From Nitzschia sp. pyKryTriq1 (lineage: Eukaryota; Bacillariophyta; Bacillariophyceae; Bacillariales; Bacillariaceae), in the NCBI GenBank assembly GCA_956465555.1, contig OY101121.1:458722-522721 (forward strand): a stretch of 64,000 bases of DNA, read 5' to 3'. Positions 1-20,446 of this stretch are shown here, piece after piece (positions within the stretch are counted from its first letter, which is position 1; every line of letters starts with the position of its first letter). Position numbers and translations under genes: made by a program. The notes beneath the pieces were generated by a model. The model saw only the letters and a list, made by a program, of their open reading frames with translations, did not search any database and had not been told where the DNA came from.

Positions 1-203
1 GTCATCCCATGACGAAACGTCACGCTCCGCCCACGATGAGACACTCATGCAGGGGGCAATGCGACAATGATGAATGAATGCGATGATGATGGCTGATGAA
101 GGATGAAGACGGAAGATGATCGATGTATGAAGCGCACAACAATCCTTCTTTCCGAGGAGTCATCGCATCTTGTCTATTTTTTCATCTCCCAAGCATCAAC
201 ACC

Positions 204-1639
204 ATGACGACGACTCGATCTTTTGGCTCTCCAACGCTGCTGCATTCCCTTTTGTTGGTCTTGGCGGCTGCCTGCTCGCCAAGCGTCTGTCACGGCTGGG
301 GCACCACAGGACACGAAATTGTTGCCAATGTAGCTTGGAGTCAGCTGTCGAATGAGACTCGTGCCTGGGTCGTCCAAGTGCTCAATGCCACAGGCGATGT
401 CAAAGAAGATGGAAAAGAAGAAGGTGATAATGATGACGATGATCCAGGATCTATCTTGGGCGCGGTGGCCGACTGGGCCGATCGAGTCCGACACTTTCTG
501 CCCTGGTCGGCGCCATTACATTACATTGATGTCAGAGACGATCTCTTCTCGAACGGTTGTCACATTGCACCTCACTTGAATCCACAGTGTAGGTTCGACT
601 ACGATCGCGATTGTCCGAACAATACGTGTGTGGCCGGTGCCATTGTCAACTACACCCATCAACTACTACGAGTTGGAGAACCGCACCAGATGCAGCAGCT
701 GCAGCAATATCTTCGAAGATCCAACAGTCGGATGAATGATCAGCAAGTGCTAGTTTCGTCCAAAGAATTATCCAACAACATTCCCAAGACCAAGGAGGCT
801 CTCATGTTTTTGACACAGTGAGTTCATATCATCTATGCTTGTTTGTTTCTTTGATTTCTGTGGAGTATCCAAGTGTTGCTCACAGCCCCCCCCCCCCCCC
901 CCCTGCGTTGATCTTTGTCCGTCCATGATCAAGTTTCATTGGAGATATTCATCAGCCCTTGCATTGTTCAAGAACGACAGATAAGGGTGGAAATGATTTC
1001 CATGTTCATTTTAATCTGGCAGCAACGACTACTGCTGCTGCTTCTTCTATTCATCATCCCCACGGCTGGAATCTTCATTCCATTTGGGATACAGGGCTGT
1101 TGGACGTCGCCTTGGCTCGCGATTACAATAATTCCCGAGTTTTGCTTGAGCAAGCCTTGTTGGCGGAACTAGTACAAGACAAATCCTCCACTACCACTTC
1201 AGCTATTATCGATGACTATCTCAGTTGCGACAAGGCTTTGGGGGCCAATCAGACCTGTACCATTCAGTGGGGACAAGAGAGCTGGGACATGGCGATTCGA
1301 TATGCCTACACACTGGACGACAATCAAACCGATGTCTCGGATGGAGCCACCTTGGATGAAGACTATTACGAGACGCGCTGGCCTATGGCCAAAGAGCGAC
1401 TGTTGGCGGGTGCAGTCCGATTGGCAGGAACTCTGGAATGGATTGTTCATGAGAACAACAACAACAACAACAGGGAGGAAGAACTCGTCCAGTCCAAATA
1501 TTCCACCAAAATCTTGGGTCGGCCTGTGTTGATGGGATCTTCCATCGTCCAACAAGAACCATCTTCATGGGCGGCATCCTTTCTTCCATGGTTTTCATGG
1601 AATGCTCGCATCATGTTCGCGGCGCGACGCAACTACTAG
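204..1639 (+). CDS. Secreted S1/P1-type zinc-dependent nuclease
   Basis: Two exons, 204-817 and 934-1639, joined by a 116-nt GTGAGT...AAG intron, give 439 aa. The ATG at 204 is chosen because it begins directly with a signal peptide whose predicted cleavage exposes Trp in WGTTGHEIVANVAW, the N-terminal zinc-binding Trp of the S1/P1 family. The splice rebuilds FLTHFIGDIHQPLH, and the other family ligands are visible: His in TGHE, Asp in ADWAD, His in PLHYID, His/Asp/His in HFIGDIHQPLH, and His/Asp in NLHSIWD. Several cysteines (SNGC, PQC, RDC, NTC) could form disulfides in the secreted protein. Family members cleave single-stranded DNA and RNA and remove 3'-phosphates, so a role in extracellular or vacuolar nucleotide scavenging is likely (inference). 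All key residues are present, so it looks functional. Confidence 0.92.
886..903 (+). repeat. C18 homopolymer inside the nuclease intron
   Basis: Eighteen consecutive cytosines lie in the only intron of the nuclease gene, ending 30 nt before the predicted 3' splice site, where a polypyrimidine tract is expected. On the opposite strand this is G18. Confidence 0.95.
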
Positions 1640-2146: not shown

Positions 2147-5100
2147 CTAGAAGCGTTTGCCAAGGGAATGAATAGCATCCACGGCAAGCCACATTCGCGA
2201 CGAACAGCTTTCTTCAATCAGCTTTTCCATGAACGAAATCGCTTCATCGGCCGTCAAATCCAATTGTAACCGTTCCCGCACACCCAGCATGGCCGTCTCC
2301 AAGGCCTGCTTGGAGTCAATATTGCTAGGGAGTGTGCAACAGTCCTCCATCAAACGGACAAACGACATCAAGTGACGGACATTTTCTGGCCTGCGAAATG
2401 TCAAAAAGGCAGCGCAAGTCAAAGACAGAAACATGGCGTAGTTGTCGCTTTCGCGACCTCCCATTCCCTCCACCATGTCTTCCGTGATCCGCAGTGGGAG
2501 ATATTTCTTTGGGTCGTGACCCAAAATAAAAGAGAAGTCGCAATGGAAAAAGTGTCCTGTGGGGTGGAGCAACAGATTGTCCAAATGACGATCGCCCACA
2601 CCCAAAATGTAAGTAATCACACTATATCCTGCACAACTCTTCACATAAGTTTCCATGACTTGTTTGCGGATCATGTAAGGATCTTTGGGGTTAAAATGAA
2701 AGGCTCGAAGATACTCCTGGATTGGATTGACCACGGGGCTGTTTTTCTTTTGCGGCTGACTACTGTTGACGCGACGGAGCGACTCGTACTTGGTCAAGCC
2801 AGCCTTGGCGACGGACGACAAAGGATCCTCTTCGGATTTATTGCTAGTCGCTCGAGGCGCATCTTTCTTGTTTCCGTCCAGGATTGAGCCAGCAAAGGGT
2901 TGGCAAATTTCACTCAGCGGCACCGAGCCATGAACCCATTCAATAAATCCCCGTCGTTTTGCTACTGGGATACATCGGAAGGTCAGAAGCTTGAGATCCA
3001 GGCCACAGGACTTCAGAATGGTATCACAGGACTTGATAAATTCAATGGCAAAGAGTTCTTGTCGGACATCGTCATCGTGTTTATAGAGGAGTGATCTCTT
3101 TTTCACCCAAAGTCCACTGCTGCCCGTCAATGGGATTCGCTGTAACGTCACGTTGATTTGAATCTCAATATCTTCCACCACTGTTTCGGGAGAATCTCCA
3201 GGCGAATCCCCGTGCTCATCAAAGTGATGGATCCCTTGTTGTGACCAGACTTTCAAGTGGTACGACTGGTTGGCCTTCGCGGCAGTGCTAATAGTATTGT
3301 CGTCGTTTTCCACGGCCTGCTGCCACAAGGTTGCCATGTCGACAAAGCAGTACCCAATCTCCTTTTCGTAGTGCAATTTGCCATTTTCATCTGAATTCAC
3401 AATGCCCTCTGTCGATTGTTGAGATACCAACAGTGTCAACGTTTCCGGTGCTCCCCAGGATGACCGACAATCAAACGTCAGTACATTCCCTTGGTCCCAT
3501 GAATGCCGATCAGAGCTATGATTGGTCGCAATACTGGACAAAGAAGAAGAAAACTAGCGTGAGTCACGACAGAAAAACAGAATCATTCCATCCATCCATC
3601 GATCGATTGATTCATCCATTCATGCATCTGGAATGCTGCTTTGTACGAACCTTGGTGCCGATTGGTTGACTGTTCCTCCGACTGATCCATGGACAGTAAA
3701 TGTCCGATTCGCACTGCTCGATGAAGATGATTCCGTTGGTTTCCGATTGGAGCCCTGGGTTAGTTCTACCAATTCCACCTTGGTACGATACATGGTTTCT
3801 CTCCCCGAAAAGTTCGTCCTCGTAAAAAATGACGAAGACGAAGCACCTGCGCCGGGGAACTCTTCTTGACAGTCAAACGTCAGAAGGAGTGGAAAGTGCG
3901 CACTCGGCAAAATGTAGGACCCTTGGGCATCTACCGACACTAGCGTTTCCGAGTCAATAATGGGATTCAATAAAGGAAACGCCGTCGGAGACAATTTGCG
4001 GAGCCGTTCTCGCATGACTTGCGTCACTTGCGCCAGTTCCGTCTCTTTGCTGGCGGACCACGGCTGCAGCGCCCAACCGGCAATCTTTTGAGAAAAGGAT
4101 CGTAGCAACGACTTTTCAATCTCCAAGCAAACCCCTTCCAACTCTTTCAAAAAGGCCAAAGTATTGGAGAAGAGGACATCTTTGGAAATGCGCTGGGGAG
4201 CAAGATGCCGATAAGTGACCGTGCTAGCACTTGGAGTCGTCGTCCCGTCGATGATTGCACGCCTGGGGGGCATGGATTGTGTCGTCGACTGTGACAATGG
4301 CGCGTTCTTGTTATTGTTGCGGGTACTATTTCTTGTCACAACAACAGTAGTGTTTAGATGAGAGGGCGACTGCTGCTGCTGCTTTTCTTCTTGTTCCGTC
4401 GAGACTACTTTCTTGTTGTTGCGACGACGACTACCCCAAGAGGGTTTTTTGTTTTTTCGAAAGAATCCAAACATCCCTTTTCGCGATTTCGACGCTTCGA
4501 TCCCAACGTCTCCACCATTCGTAGTAGTAGAGGGCGCAGTGGTGGTGGTGCCCGTCGTCGTCGTCGTCGTCGTCGTCATTGTTGTTCCAGTAGTTGCCGT
4601 GCTAGTACAGGTAGATGCGGGGACAGGATTGTGATCTGGAGCCTGTTCAATGCGAATGGGAATTTGGCGGGGTTGTCGTCGTCGTTCTTGTTGAGACGAT
4701 GATGAAGGAGTAGTACTAGTAGCAGAAGTGTTCTGTAGTAGTCGTTGATTCCGTCTCCTTTCCAATTCTTCTTTCATATCTTTCAATTCCAAGGCTTGAG
4801 CCATGCACTCCATTCGATGACACAAATCCAAATTATTAATGTTGTTGTTGTTGTTGGTGTTGGTGGTGTTATTGTTGTGGGATGCCACCATTTCCAGCAA
4901 CAAGTTGGCCAGTGGTGACGACGACGATGTGGACGGCGGATCCTCTAGCTGCTGTTGCTGACGTCGTAATAAGGCAAGAAGTGGCAAGAGAAAGGATTCC
5001 ATCGACTTTCGTGACTCCCTCGGTGACTGCTGTTTCAAAAAGGAGAGTACTCGTGATTGCGATGCCGCTGTAGCAGAATTAGTAGCAGTAGCCGTAAGAA

Positions 5101-7045
5101 TGGTGTTTCGTTCATCATAGTTGGCCTTGTCGTACTGGAGCAGATAGACCAACGCATCGTCCACGGAGAACAATTCCATGAGTGGTCGATCGAGTGGTGG
5201 ACACGATCGATAATAGTGGCGTTGAGAATAATGTCGATAGTGATGATTCTGGCGACGATGATTACGACGAAGATGTGGTGGACGGCTGTGAAAGGAAAAG
5301 AATTCTCCGGCTGCGACTCGAAATGCCAGCTGAGACAAACTGGTAGTAGTGGTGGTAGTAGCAGCAGCAGCAGTACCACCAGTGCGGGGAGGATTGGAAG
5401 AAAACGAAGAAGATGGTGGGGATCCTGGATTGGAAAACCAAAGAGGATGGACCCGAATTTCCACCCCATCCAGTTGGGCGGCAACTTGAGGTCGATGAAC
5501 TTTGGGTCGTGTGTAATAGGATGGCTTGTTCAGCTGGACCACACTGTTGGTAGTATTAGAAGTATTCGTTGCCTTGTTGTTGTTATTGTTGTTGTTGTTG
5601 CTGGTAGCCGCGGATACTGTTGGTGTTGGTGCCTGTGGATTTCCTCCTCGTTCCTGATGGGCCTCCCACAAACGTTCCCAATGTCCCGATCGTGCTTCCG
5701 ACGGTGGTATACAAAGCGTCAACTGAATGTCTCGTCGAATAGTCACGAGCGTCCGTAAACTTTCTGCTGCCATGGTATGATCCAGTTCATAGATATCCTT
5801 GGGAACAAACGGCATGGACGACTCATCACCATGATCATTAGCAGCATTGTTGTTGTTGTTGCTGTTGCTGCTGCTGCTGCTGGTGGTGGTGGTGGTGGTG
5901 GTAATATTGGCAATGATGGATCCCTTGACTACACCCGCATCGTGTGCATGAGAATAGGCCCGTTTGACCAAGGCAAAATTTCCACAGGGTGCCCAATCAA
6001 TGCCATAGGGTGGATTGGACAACAAGACGACGGAATATAATTGTCCTTGATAAATCAACGTCATGTGCACTGGTTGTCGTATGCAAGTACTCAACAATGA
6101 TGATGATGATTCGTCGGCGGCTGCTCCTGGTGCTGCTGCTGATGTGGTATTTCGGGAAGGTGTATTGGGTGTCTTACCACCAGCATTGTTATTTTGACTA
6201 CTCCCACTCTCCGATGCCACGCCTCCGCCACTGCTACTGCTACTAGTAGTAGAAGTAGTAAATCCTTCATATTGCCAAAGTCGTTCCAAGGCTTGTTTGG
6301 AGGGTTCTGCCAACAAATTCATCCCATTGATCGATACCAGTACCGAATGAGGGATAATGCCCGCACACCAAGCTTCCGAGCCAGGTGATACATGTCGCAC
6401 ATACAACCCCACGGCCAATCTCGCAATCGAAATACCAAGTAACGGTAATTGAACGTGCTGCTGCTGCTGTTGTTGTTGCTGCTGCTGCTTGCTGTTGGAA
6501 GAAGAACCCTTCTTATCATGACTCGTACTCGTCGTCATTGCAGCAGGAATGTGCACTTGATAGGACGTGTAGGGAGCAATTTGGGCGAGCCCCATGCCTT
6601 GTCGTGGTCGCTTGTTGGTATGACCACTAGTACGAGTACTGCTGCCGCTGCTGCTGCTGGCACGACCATCAGGGACAAAGTCGGCTCCAAAAACCGCATG
6701 AATCCATTCGTTGCGAACATCGTCTCGAAAGGTCGTGGCGGTAGGAATCATCATCATGTCCATAAAAGTATTAGTATTGTCCCTACTAGTCGCATCATCA
6801 TCCACGGTCGTCAAGGGATATTTTTGCTGCTGCTGCTGCTGCTGTACATGCATGTCTTCTTCTATGTCATGATCCGAGCCATCATCCTCGTGGGACGAGT
6901 CGTCACACTCACACTCACACTCCTCCACCATGATAGTATTGTTATCATTACCGGTATGATGATTATTCTTCAGTTTGGAAATATTAGTATTGTTGTTATT
7001 AGGGAGGGGTGGTGGTGGTTGCGCCTTTTTCGACAGGGGAAGCAT
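2147..7045 (-). CDS. Vps34-like phosphoinositide kinase with PDZ-like domains and an N-lobe C2 insertion
   Basis: Exons 7045-3651 and 3533-2147 (117-nt intron, phase 2, AG|GTTCGT to CAG) encode about 1,593 aa, roughly twice a normal Vps34. In order: low-complexity Asn/Gln/acidic N-terminus with poly-Q near residue 185; PDZ-like domain at about 196-260 (LGISI...GSEAWCAGI...LVSINGM); a second degenerate one at about 335-455; a possible helical segment near 620-690; basic, Ser/Thr-rich linkers; first kinase strand near 1050 (FPLLLTFDC); a C2-like block at about 1070-1270; ATP-binding Lys near 1283 (LLYKHDDDVRQE); catalytic loop GDRHLDNLL near 1446; metal-binding motif near 1464. SCAGYSVITYILGVGDRHLD and the tail EESCSSRMWLAVDAIH are class III PI3K-like. 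The expected DFG reads DFS. Likely product is PI3P on endosomal membranes, but PI4-kinase activity cannot be excluded, because the position of the N-lobe insertion resembles PI4K-III-beta. Confidence 0.8.
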
Positions 7046-7860: not shown

Positions 7861-9954
7861 ATGACTGTCCGTGCTATGACTGTCCGCTTGAAAAAGGAGT
7901 TGGCCAAGAAATCGACAACTCCTGCGACGACGACGACGACGACGACGACGACGGCAATGACGCCGAGGACGAATAAAACGAGTAATAGGAGTAGAAATCA
8001 TCAGGGAGGAGGACGGCTCACCCGGTTTCTTCTCCGTGGGACGGCGGCGGTGGCCTTCCTACATTATCTCTCGCTACTTTTTATATTTCATCAAGGAATG
8101 CTGATTGGAGACCAACAACAAGGAAAAGATCAGAATAATATGATACTTCCGTTTATGGATCTTCCAATGGTGCCTCGAGAAGTCGTCCATGCACCGCAAC
8201 AACCACAACAAAAAGAACAAGTAGTAGTGCAAGAGAAGACGAATACAGCAGCAATACCTACCTTGACCCTGCCGTCCAAGCCGCTGCGCGTTCTCTGGGC
8301 CATTGAGTCGACTGCCACAGAAGACGGACGACAACGACGACAACTTCTTCGCGAAACGTACCTATCTTACAAGAAGGATCCATCATCATCATCATCATTC
8401 TCGTCGTCGTCGTCGCCGTCGCCGTCCAACTTGTTTTGTTCTCTTCAGGAACTGGAGCAGCAGCAGCAGCATCAGAAGCAGGGAAACCCATCTTTGGCTT
8501 CCCCAGAGAACAATGGATCATCCTGCCAATTCTTTTATTCCTTTATCATTCCCGAATCCTCCTCCTCCTCCTCGTCGACGACGGCGACAAAAGAAAAAGA
8601 ACAAGAAGAACCAGATACACTCAAATGGGATGATAGTGGCAAAGGACTTTCCTCGTGGTTGGAATCCATTCAACGACAAAGCCAACAGAGCGAGCCTTTC
8701 GCCTGGAACTTTATAGCCTGGGTGGATCCTCGGACTTTGATTGCGCCGCTCGAAATTCTTGATTTGCTACAAGAAGAATTACAACAACTGCCACAGCAGC
8801 GACCTCTGTTTATAGAAACACCCGAAAATAAAATTCCGTTCAGGTGCGGTGATAAATGTGCCTGGGACCACGAAAACCAACTCCGAGATGGACGGATGAT
8901 GATTGCCTCGATGCCCCTCGTATCTCTGCTGGACCTCCAAGCAAATCCCTGCCTTCGAAAGTCCGGTCAAGACACCATGAAAGTGTTGCGATCCTGTCTT
9001 GCAAACATTTCCCTCGGTAAACCTCCTGGCGGCGACGGTAGCAGCAGTAGCCAGCGAAAGGTAGTTGCCTATGATACCATCGGTCATCAATACGCGCAGA
9101 TTGACGACTGGCAGTATCGGATACTTTGGGAGCGACAGGAGCAAATGGCACAATTCTACCGACGATTCCAACGAAAACACAAGGTTCACATCATCTCCGC
9201 CAGATTCAATCGAGATCCTGATCGGTACACCAGCGAATTCCAAGATATCAAGACTGCCATGATACACTATGGTTTTGACCCAGCAAGCCAAATATTTTTG
9301 TACGATGGTGTCTTTCCCGACTTTATCCGGAACGATCATCGATGGGAACAACACCTAGAATTTTTAGACGACCCAGAGGTGAATGATTTGGGGGCGGGCT
9401 ACTGGTTCTGGAAGGCGCCGATTCTTGAGCATCATATGAATCATCTACTTGACGATGGTGATTTTGTCATTTTCAACAATCTTCAAGTTCCCTTTCAACT
9501 TCCTTGGATCAACGAGTTGCTCGAAACCATGATGTCCCGACAAGCCAATTTGGCGGCTTTCCACGTCTTTTTCCCCGAAAATCAATATTCCAAGCGTGAC
9601 CTCTATGAATCGCTTTGTTCCCAGATTCCCGATCGTTTCCTCCCCAACGATATATCTAACCAATACACGGGTCATTTTCTGATTCTACGCAAATCTCCCG
9701 GTACCATGGACTTCCTCCAACGATTTACAAGAATCGCGGCCAACTACCATATGTTGAGTGACGAAAAGGGTGTCCTGCCCGAAGATCCGGAATTCAAAGA
9801 GCATCGACGCGATCAATCCATCATCAGTCTTTTGCTCAAATGTCAATATCACGAATCGGGCAAGCAAGACTTTCCTCAACCAGCTCTCAAAGAATTGGGT
9901 TGGTTCGGTGCATCCACATTTCATCTAGAACCCATCATCGATGCCGTCAGTTAG
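7861..9954 (+). CDS. Type II membrane glycosyltransferase-like protein
   Basis: Single exon, 697 aa. A basic Ser/Thr-rich N-terminus is followed by one hydrophobic segment at about residues 61-79 (VAFLHYLSLLFIF), the layout of a Golgi type II enzyme. After a Gln/Ser-rich stem, PLRVLWAIEST and RRQLLRETYLSY (about 140-165) recall the start of GT31-type galactosyltransferases. The C-terminal half (from HKVHIISARF, about 440) has GYWFWKAPILEHHMNHL, DDGDFVIFNN and RRDQSIISLLL, motifs of nucleotide-sugar transferases in which WFWKP-like and D-x-D-like elements line the donor site and HRxDQSI is typical. The strict DXD is replaced by DDGD. Substrate and linkage cannot be told. Poly-Ser and poly-Gln runs come from TCN and CAG repeats. 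It is transcribed divergently from the lipid kinase. Confidence 0.62.
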   Translation: MTVRAMTVRLKKELAKKSTTPATTTTTTTTTAMTPRTNKTSNRSRNHQGGGRLTRFLLRGTAAVAFLHYLSLLFIFHQGMLIGDQQQGKDQNNMILPFMDLPMVPREVVHAPQQPQQKEQVVVQEKTNTAAIPTLTLPSKPLRVLWAIESTATEDGRQRRQLLRETYLSYKKDPSSSSSFSSSSSPSPSNLFCSLQELEQQQQHQKQGNPSLASPENNGSSCQFFYSFIIPESSSSSSSTTATKEKEQEEPDTLKWDDSGKGLSSWLESIQRQSQQSEPFAWNFIAWVDPRTLIAPLEILDLLQEELQQLPQQRPLFIETPENKIPFRCGDKCAWDHENQLRDGRMMIASMPLVSLLDLQANPCLRKSGQDTMKVLRSCLANISLGKPPGGDGSSSSQRKVVAYDTIGHQYAQIDDWQYRILWERQEQMAQFYRRFQRKHKVHIISARFNRDPDRYTSEFQDIKTAMIHYGFDPASQIFLYDGVFPDFIRNDHRWEQHLEFLDDPEVNDLGAGYWFWKAPILEHHMNHLLDDGDFVIFNNLQVPFQLPWINELLETMMSRQANLAAFHVFFPENQYSKRDLYESLCSQIPDRFLPNDISNQYTGHFLILRKSPGTMDFLQRFTRIAANYHMLSDEKGVLPEDPEFKEHRRDQSIISLLLKCQYHESGKQDFPQPALKELGWFGASTFHLEPIIDAVS

Positions 9955-19166: not shown

Positions 19167-20446
19167 GGAAGAAGAAGAAGTGATATTGTTCTTGGAGATT
19201 CCATTGTATCCTTCCAAACTGGAGCGTCTTCATTATAGATACGATGTCCCGGAATCCTTGCCACCCAACACTTGTTTGGTGTACTTTTCGGATGGATCAA
19301 CTCGGTGCAGTCCGGCTCTATTTTCCGTCTTGTTAAAACATCAATTGACAGAACCATCGCCGATTGAGGACTTTTCTCGATTTGAAGATGATGTCTTTCG
19401 GACGTTGGATGGCGTACCTGGAACTCCTGGTGACAATGCTAATATGGCTACTACTGATAGACGTCGTCAGCGATCCGAATCCATCTCGGCCTTGTTGGAA
19501 CCGCAAGATCTAAACAGTCAACTCATTGATGAATTCGATGGACCGGAAGAAGAAGAAGAAGAATCATTACTGGGGGGTGGTGAAATGGCATTCGACGAGT
19601 CGGAAGAAACTATAATTCAGTCAGATGTACGAAAGGAGCGAGCACGGCTACTGGCCATGATTACAAGGGAAGAAAAGCAACTAGAGGAAGAAGTCACGTG
19701 CTTGCAAGAGGTAGGTCGTGGGTGTGGGGGGAGGGGAGGGCTAATTTGTTTCTGTTCTTGTCGCTTGAGAATCTTCATCTGCTGGAATGTAATATAACAG
19801 ACGAGGGTTCAACTGTGTATTCATAGCTAACTTGGTGCTGCTTTTCACCAACCTTTTCGTCTGGCAACAGGAGCGAGAAGAATTGACATTCATGCTTCAA
19901 GAGGCAAATGACCTTGAACGACACATTCAGCTGGTGGAAACAGAGACAAAGGTACAGATGATAGAATTTCGCAAGGACGAGTTTCGAAAAGAAGCTCAAC
20001 ACATGAAGCTTCTGAGGGAATTACAAACAGTATATCCCATTACTATGGATCCCAGAAAGGGCTACCTGATCCGAAACTTGCGTCTGCCAGTGGATATATA
20101 TACCACAACCGTGCCGGAGGAAGAAATAGCGGCTGCCTTGGGCTTTTGTTGTCATTTGGTCTTTATGATGTCCAAGTATCTCTCCATTTCATTAAGGTAT
20201 CGGCTCTTTTGCAATTCTTCACGATCTGCTGTTCAGCTCGATGCGAATACCTTCCTTCCCTTGTTTACCGCCCGGTCTGTGGAGCGAGAGCATTTGGAAC
20301 GAGCCATGGGCCTGTTGGGAGCCAACGTCGACTGTATTCTCGTGACATTGGGCATTGAATTCACCCCCAAGTCGCATGTTCTTGCGCGATTGAAGCGAGT
20401 CTATGACCAGATCATTGCTGGAGAAATACCTTTAGGCGTCCATTAA
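18466..20446 (+). CDS. UVRAG/Vps38-like subunit of the class III PI3K complex
   Basis: Two exons (18466-19710 and 19871-20446; 160-nt phase-0 intron, AG|GTAGGT to CAG) give 606 aa. The first ATG in frame is at 18466. A C2-like region spans about residues 140-290 (IVYTSPELRQSVQPEWEHLDE ... VILFLEIPLYPSKLERLHY), interrupted by poly-Q and poly-N runs. The intron splits a coiled coil (LLAMITREEKQLEEEVTCLQE | EREELTFMLQEANDLERHIQL). The C-terminal domain has LLRELQTVYPI, YLIRNLRLPVDIY, EEEIAAALGFCCHLVFMMSKYLSISLRYRL, SRSAV and AMGLLGANVDCIL, the signature of the UVRAG/ATG14 fold. Presence of an N-terminal C2 favours UVRAG/Vps38 (complex II, endosomal) over ATG14. Together with Vps34, Vps15 and Vps30/Beclin it would direct PI3P synthesis. 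Confidence 0.85.

Follow-up and report, generated by a model that had tools for sequence, protein, structure and literature searches.

The window analysed in this work, a stretch of 64,000 nucleotides from the diatom Nitzschia sp. pyKryTriq1 (contig OY101121.1, positions 458,722 to 522,721; genome of 40.65 Mb in 20 contigs), contains a lipid kinase gene on its minus strand (7045..2147), for which PDZ-PI3K is used here as a working name (PI3K, phosphatidylinositol 3-kinase). Two open frames are spliced to encode a protein of 1593 amino acids that ends with a stop at 2147. The computed architecture of the protein encoded by these two exons (2147..7045) comprises two PDZ domains at the N-terminus, a helical region that is reduced, and a kinase of the Vps34 type with a C2 domain placed on the hairpin of its N-lobe, between the first strand and the strand of the ATP-binding lysine. 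PDZ-like domains and a C2-like insert in the N-lobe had been proposed in an initial inspection of the DNA, the sequence-only reading; the observation was confirmed, and its interpretation is supported.

Gene model

The two exons are separated by an intron at 3534..3650 (117 nt, GT-AG, phase 2, AAG/GTTCGT ... TTTGTCCAG/T), which lies inside the insert in the kinase domain and holds two in-frame stops. Four choices of a GT-AG intron keep the frame; the chosen one has usual-looking splice sites and is the one that was compared with homologues. These homologues stem from a search with residues 930-1593 as the query, in which the 7979 candidates sharing most words were scored and 516 proteins were found. 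The homologue counts given below rest on the first 108 aligned of the best 120 of these proteins. None of the 108 has extra residues at the splice junction, and when the window insert was modelled with the intron read through, the intron codons mostly had a predicted local distance difference test (pLDDT) score below 50. Four proteins that, judged by their names, belong to transcriptome sets (P0082, P0086, P0099, and P0100) have inserts of 178-225 residues, and the transcript-derived P0086 joins PDZ and kinase parts in a single frame. An artefact of the gene model, including the presence of two separate genes that the sequence-only reading had considered, is ruled out by the clean junction in the 108 homologues and by these transcriptome-set proteins.

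A Vps34-type kinase domain

Exon 2 was matched to the PI3_PI4_kinase profile with an E value of 2e-40 and to solved Vps34 structures with values of up to 3e-53. The whole-protein model available, that of the homologue P0031, also aligned best to Vps34 in a structure search, so that the kinase is nearest to Vps34 in sequence and fold. All features given here are on the minus strand. The first kinase strand with its lead-in, GSYILPSAHFPLLLTFDC (3869..3922, residues 1042-1059), was located by alignment and the P0031 model, and the strand RSLLYKHDDDVRQE (3056..3097) carries the ATP-binding lysine K1283, which is present in 108/108 homologues. An extended loop of 55 residues follows PLSEICQPF (2729..2893, residues 1346-1400); it ranges from 18 to 105 residues in the homologues, is partly of low confidence in the P0031 model, and presumably lies near the position of the membrane-contacting loop of p110-alpha. 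The catalytic loop GVGDRHLDNLLL (2567..2602, residues 1443-1454) contains D1446, H1448, D1450, and N1451, each of them kept in 107 of the 108 homologues, with glutamate or a gap in the other row.

The activation segment starts with HCDFSFILGHDPKK (2504..2545, residues 1462-1475), in which the glycine of the DFG motif is replaced by serine. Its aspartate is kept in 107/108 homologues (the remaining row has glutamate or a gap). At the third position of the motif, serine was found in 103 homologues, threonine in three, glutamine in one, and a gap in one, whereas glycine, kept by all five sister proteins introduced below (P0117, P0118, P0121, P0122, and P0123), is absent. This replacement in 107 of 107 homologues with the position might indicate a catalytically altered or dead kinase that serves as a scaffold, but we regard this as very improbable, since the ATP-binding lysine, the catalytic aspartate, histidine, and asparagine residues, and the aspartate of the activation segment are retained in 107 or 108 of the 108 homologues. 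The activation loop reads GHDPKK and appears by eye to be class III-like, as it lacks the basic box known from class I. It would fit phosphatidylinositol (PI) as the substrate and phosphatidylinositol 3-phosphate (PI3P) as the product.

A C2 domain in the N-lobe hairpin

The motif FPLLLTFDC occupies residues 1051-1059 and LLYKHDDDVRQE starts at residue 1280, which leaves 220 residues between the two strands; the large gap described in the sequence-only reading is thus real, with its estimate of about 230 residues slightly too high. According to the alignments the full insert spans 3092..3874 (residues 1058-1279, intron included), and the AlphaFold2 (AF2) model and fold searches place the core of its C2 domain at 3140..3790 (residues 1086-1263). 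The same hairpin was compared in 19 kinase rows, of which four were misplaced by the motif pattern and left unused. Seven of the class III rows have 12 residues in it (the named ones are from plants or animals), four others have 24-57 residues, and four rows of the class I/II type have 14-17 residues.

In all 108 aligned homologues the insert is present, with a length of 117-239 residues (median 197), and it contains conserved strand motifs, such as SsWGaPqTLSLRl, which argues that it is more than a chance event. Strict motif patterns recovered it in 64 of 110 sequences, and the alignment-based count was used instead. When searched in isolation against known structures, the insert matched almost exclusively C2 domains, as expected from the sequence-only reading, and the AF2 model of the window insert shows a folded C2 beta-sandwich. 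The five C2-like strands picked out beforehand all fall on or overlap predicted strands. A disordered insert is ruled out by the P0031 model together with the AF2 model, and an origin as part of a normal helical domain is ruled out by the position of the insert between two kinase strands and by its structure, which is all-beta except for one helix. Inspection of the alignment by eye for calcium-binding aspartates revealed no conspicuous acidic position in the loop that follows the first strand.

The PDZ pair and the helical region

In the window gene, the first part of PDZ domain 1 (6263..6457, residues 197-261; boundaries by eye) is divided by a low-complexity loop from its last strands (6020..6079, residues 323-342; by eye against the P0031 model). 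PDZ domain 2 follows at 5705..6013 (residues 345-447 including a low-complexity loop; boundaries by eye). Broken up by these loops, the window copy was placed by alignment, and exon 1 reached 14.2 bits against the PDZ profile (E 0.057), below the Pfam cut-off. The PDZ-like N-terminus of the sequence-only reading is borne out through the family. Among 38 members, four sister proteins included, that were scanned against Pfam at E values of up to 0.5, PDZ_6 was detected in 32 (best E 1.8e-11) and PDZ in 29, and precomputed PDZ domains exist for 30/108 homologues. The N-terminal part of P0031 matched a solved PDZ domain with an E value of 3e-4, a second stretch matched other PDZ structures at E >0.01, and the P0031 model has confident strands in the region of the pair. 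A structure search with the whole P0031 model listed 50 matches without a PDZ chain, but it is uninformative, since all places were filled by kinases.

As a separate observation, a very hydrophobic stretch of nine residues, which is not long enough to span a membrane in the normal way, occurs within the first 49 residues of 55/108 homologues, 12 of the 108 homologues starting with MVLVLAALY. Such a hydrophobic N-terminus is absent from the window gene, and no upstream exon encoding one was seen by eye in a 1.9-kb stretch.

The helical region, which resembles a PIK accessory domain, was placed by eye at 4739..5206 (residues 614-769). In the P0031 model the helices lie at residues 358-506, between the second PDZ domain and the kinase. 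Compared with class III helical domains, the homologue region gave a weak hhalign match (probability 22.9, E 9e-4) and that of the sister proteins a probability of 49 (E 2e-4); Pfam PF00613 was seen in one of the 38 members, at an E value of 0.12. The class III helical domain thus appears to be present in a reduced form and not plainly missing.

A kinase family in diatoms and its sister proteins

Among the matches listed, eleven full-length ones carry species names, and all are from diatoms. They comprise the pennates Nitzschia (two), Cylindrotheca, Amphora, Seminavis, Epithemia, and Fistulifera, and the centrics Cyclotella, Thalassiosira (two), and Proboscia; the rows nearest to the window protein in the tree are from Nitzschia and Cylindrotheca. 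The search for orthologs suggested with the sequence-only reading was thus successful in eleven named species. The arrangement that it considered unusual for the PI3K family stands, but not as the oddity of a single gene, given that it characterizes a family found across diatoms.

In a tree carefully built from 55 kinase rows and 289 columns, the homologues form one clade with the five sister proteins (support 100/99). This clade joins class III (98/95), staying distinct from the class III rows next to it, and lies apart from the FYVE-bearing, class I/II, and PI4K rows, and the eight rows of the class I/II type form a group of their own (99/97). The same picture emerged from a quick tree based on more columns, with support of 99 for the clade and 92 for its grouping with class III. 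As a side observation, the FYVE domain (PF01363) was detected in fourteen proteins with a PI3/4-kinase domain (P0179-P0184, P0186-P0188, P0190, P0208, P0210, P0213, and P0219), and the five of these that were included in the tree cluster together close to class III.

The PDZ tandem of the sister proteins P0117, P0118, P0122, and P0123 is homologous to that of the family (hhalign probability 98.7, E 2.5e-16); P0121 starts further in, without the PDZ-bearing N-terminal part. The hairpin measures 231-237 residues in P0117, P0118, and P0121, but 9 in P0122 and 19 in P0123. No match of the sister-protein insert was found in Pfam or among PDB sequences. A profile of the family insert also matched neither this insert nor known C2 sets, a comparison that is uninformative because a control pair of known C2 sets gave nothing either. 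The tree requires two changes of the insert state, and one gain followed by one loss fits as well as two gains. A single insert-bearing clade is disfavoured (P value of the approximately unbiased test, p-AU, 0.012, for a group chosen after the tree had been seen).

This variation bears on the possibility that the inserted C2 merely decorates a permissive loop, serving passively for structure or protein binding and taking no part in the regulation of catalysis. Consistent with this are the range of 12-57 residues at the same hairpin in class III rows, the short hairpins of P0122 and P0123, and the rapid evolution of the insert, whose mean identity to the window protein is 28% compared with 60% for the kinase part that follows it. 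However, its retention in every one of the 108 homologues with conserved motifs makes a mere ornament unlikely.

Comparison with known kinases

Class III PI3K Vps34/PIK3C3 provides the closest solved structures and sequences, and the diatom kinase shares with it the catalytic loop and a helical region before the kinase. The diatom protein differs in its N-terminus, at which a PDZ pair takes the position of the Vps34 C2, and in having a C2 in the N-lobe hairpin, serine in place of the DFG glycine, and a reduced helical region. Since it lacks both the class III order of N-terminal C2, helical, and kinase domains and the DFG motif, it was filed as a class III-like PI3K and not as Vps34. Insertions into the N-lobe have precedents in the long linker of PI4K-III-beta (residues 408-507), which probably occupies the same hairpin as the diatom C2 and which the sequence-only reading placed at about the same N-lobe position, and in the FRB domain of mTOR, which sits before the first kinase strand. 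As described in an excerpt of PMC4832280, the PI4K-III-beta linker is dynamic and lies within the kinase domain, in agreement with the sequence-only reading. FRB exemplifies a folded insertion in the N-lobe of a PI3K-superfamily kinase (excerpt of PMC7619004). Unlike the C2, FRB is helical, and it belongs to a protein kinase. Class II PI3Ks also possess a C2 beyond the core, but as part of a C-terminal PX-C2 extension (excerpt of PMC6358306), and class I/II rows stand apart in the tree. The sister proteins share the kinase clade and, as detailed above, the PDZ tandem or the long hairpin, but differ from the diatom family in the retained DFG and in the short hairpins of P0122 and P0123.

No description of a PDZ-bearing or C2-inserted PI3K was found in the open-licence PMC literature searched; none is contained in the available portions of PMC4617754, PMC11449223, PMC7058042, and PMC3019232, and a term search of PMC3024228 gave no occurrence. 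As far as this literature is concerned, a folded C2 in the N-lobe of a Vps34-type kinase with PDZ domains in front appears to be new.

A separate Vps34-type gene and other genes

The genome contains, on contig C1, a second gene, of the Vps34 type, with a normal Vps34 helical domain (E 1.5e-39) and kinase exons. No N-terminal C2 was seen in this gene: in a tblastn search with five Vps34-type proteins, the matches to the locus began only at approximately residue 240 of the queries, and a genome search for the N-terminal C2 with PF00792 gave no match but is uninformative, since the control was silent as well. Matches to the Beclin/ATG6 family are also present in the genome. These matches and the class III-like kinase core would agree with PDZ-PI3K being an alternative catalytic subunit still found in complexes with Vps15 and partners of the Beclin type. 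We consider such a role quite improbable, because the Vps15/Beclin complex can draw on the separate Vps34-type gene and because Vps34 reaches its partners through its N-terminal C2, which makes key contacts with other subunits of its complexes (excerpt of PMC6358306), whereas in the P0031 model the second PDZ domain is followed, up to the helical region, by no more than a short helix and sequence of low confidence. For this last reason, PDZ-PI3K probably works outside the Vps15/Beclin complex.

Apart from this, a weak Beclin/ATG6 match (E 3e-4, under the cut-off and possibly only a coiled coil) lies in the window at approximately 20027-20308 on the plus strand (G000 C7:478748-479029). The kinase gene is flanked by two plus-strand neighbours, namely, a convergent S1/P1 nuclease gene with two exons (window 120-1639; Pfam E 3e-18 and 1e-28) and a divergent open frame of 697 amino acids (window 7861-9951) with no Pfam match at E 0.01.

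Proposed function and significance

On balance, we find it fairly probable that PDZ-PI3K is a second Vps34-like PI 3-kinase of diatoms that is recruited by its PDZ domains, regulated by its C2, and produces PI3P. The enzyme would generate PI3P from PI, and its PDZ pair may recruit it to the C-terminal tails of membrane proteins, replacing the Vps15/Beclin hub. The inserted C2 might bind a lipid of the membrane or a partner protein beside the active site, and its docking would position or shift the ATP-binding lobe and thereby activate the kinase at the sites where it is needed. A shift of the N-lobe is the lever by which activators of the PI3K superfamily act (excerpt of PMC7619004).

Several points weigh against this reading. 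The absent DFG glycine could alter catalysis, and the insert appears dispensable for such a kinase, since P0122 and P0123 manage without it. Profile searches for a C2, as proposed with the sequence-only reading, failed, with a Pfam match in none of five inserts and a C2 family in none of the 38 members scanned at E values of up to 0.5. The helical regions of homologues and sister proteins did not match each other (hhalign probability 0.55). The whole-protein model is that of the homologue P0031, and the model of the window insert includes the translated intron. Finally, enzyme activity, localization, the ligands of the PDZ pair, binding of the C2 to lipids, and independence from Vps15 are all inferred.

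A more far-reaching reading, which we offer tentatively as a possible one, is that of an undescribed PI3K lineage spread across diatoms, in which the PDZ pair would stand in for the C2 hub of the Vps15/Beclin complex, the C2 on the hairpin of the ATP-binding lysine would act as a built-in sensor whose binding to a membrane or partner directly displaces the ATP-binding lobe, and recruitment combined with allostery would make a regulatory subunit unnecessary. Mammalian Vps34, in comparison, is the one class III PI3K and always occurs within larger assemblies (excerpt of PMC6358306). If true, the diatom family would represent an experiment of nature that shows which tasks a PI3K needs its regulatory shell for. 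It points to PI3P signalling in diatoms, and the insert-free P0122 and P0123 provide a natural comparison, with and without, for the entry of a folded domain into a kinase hairpin.
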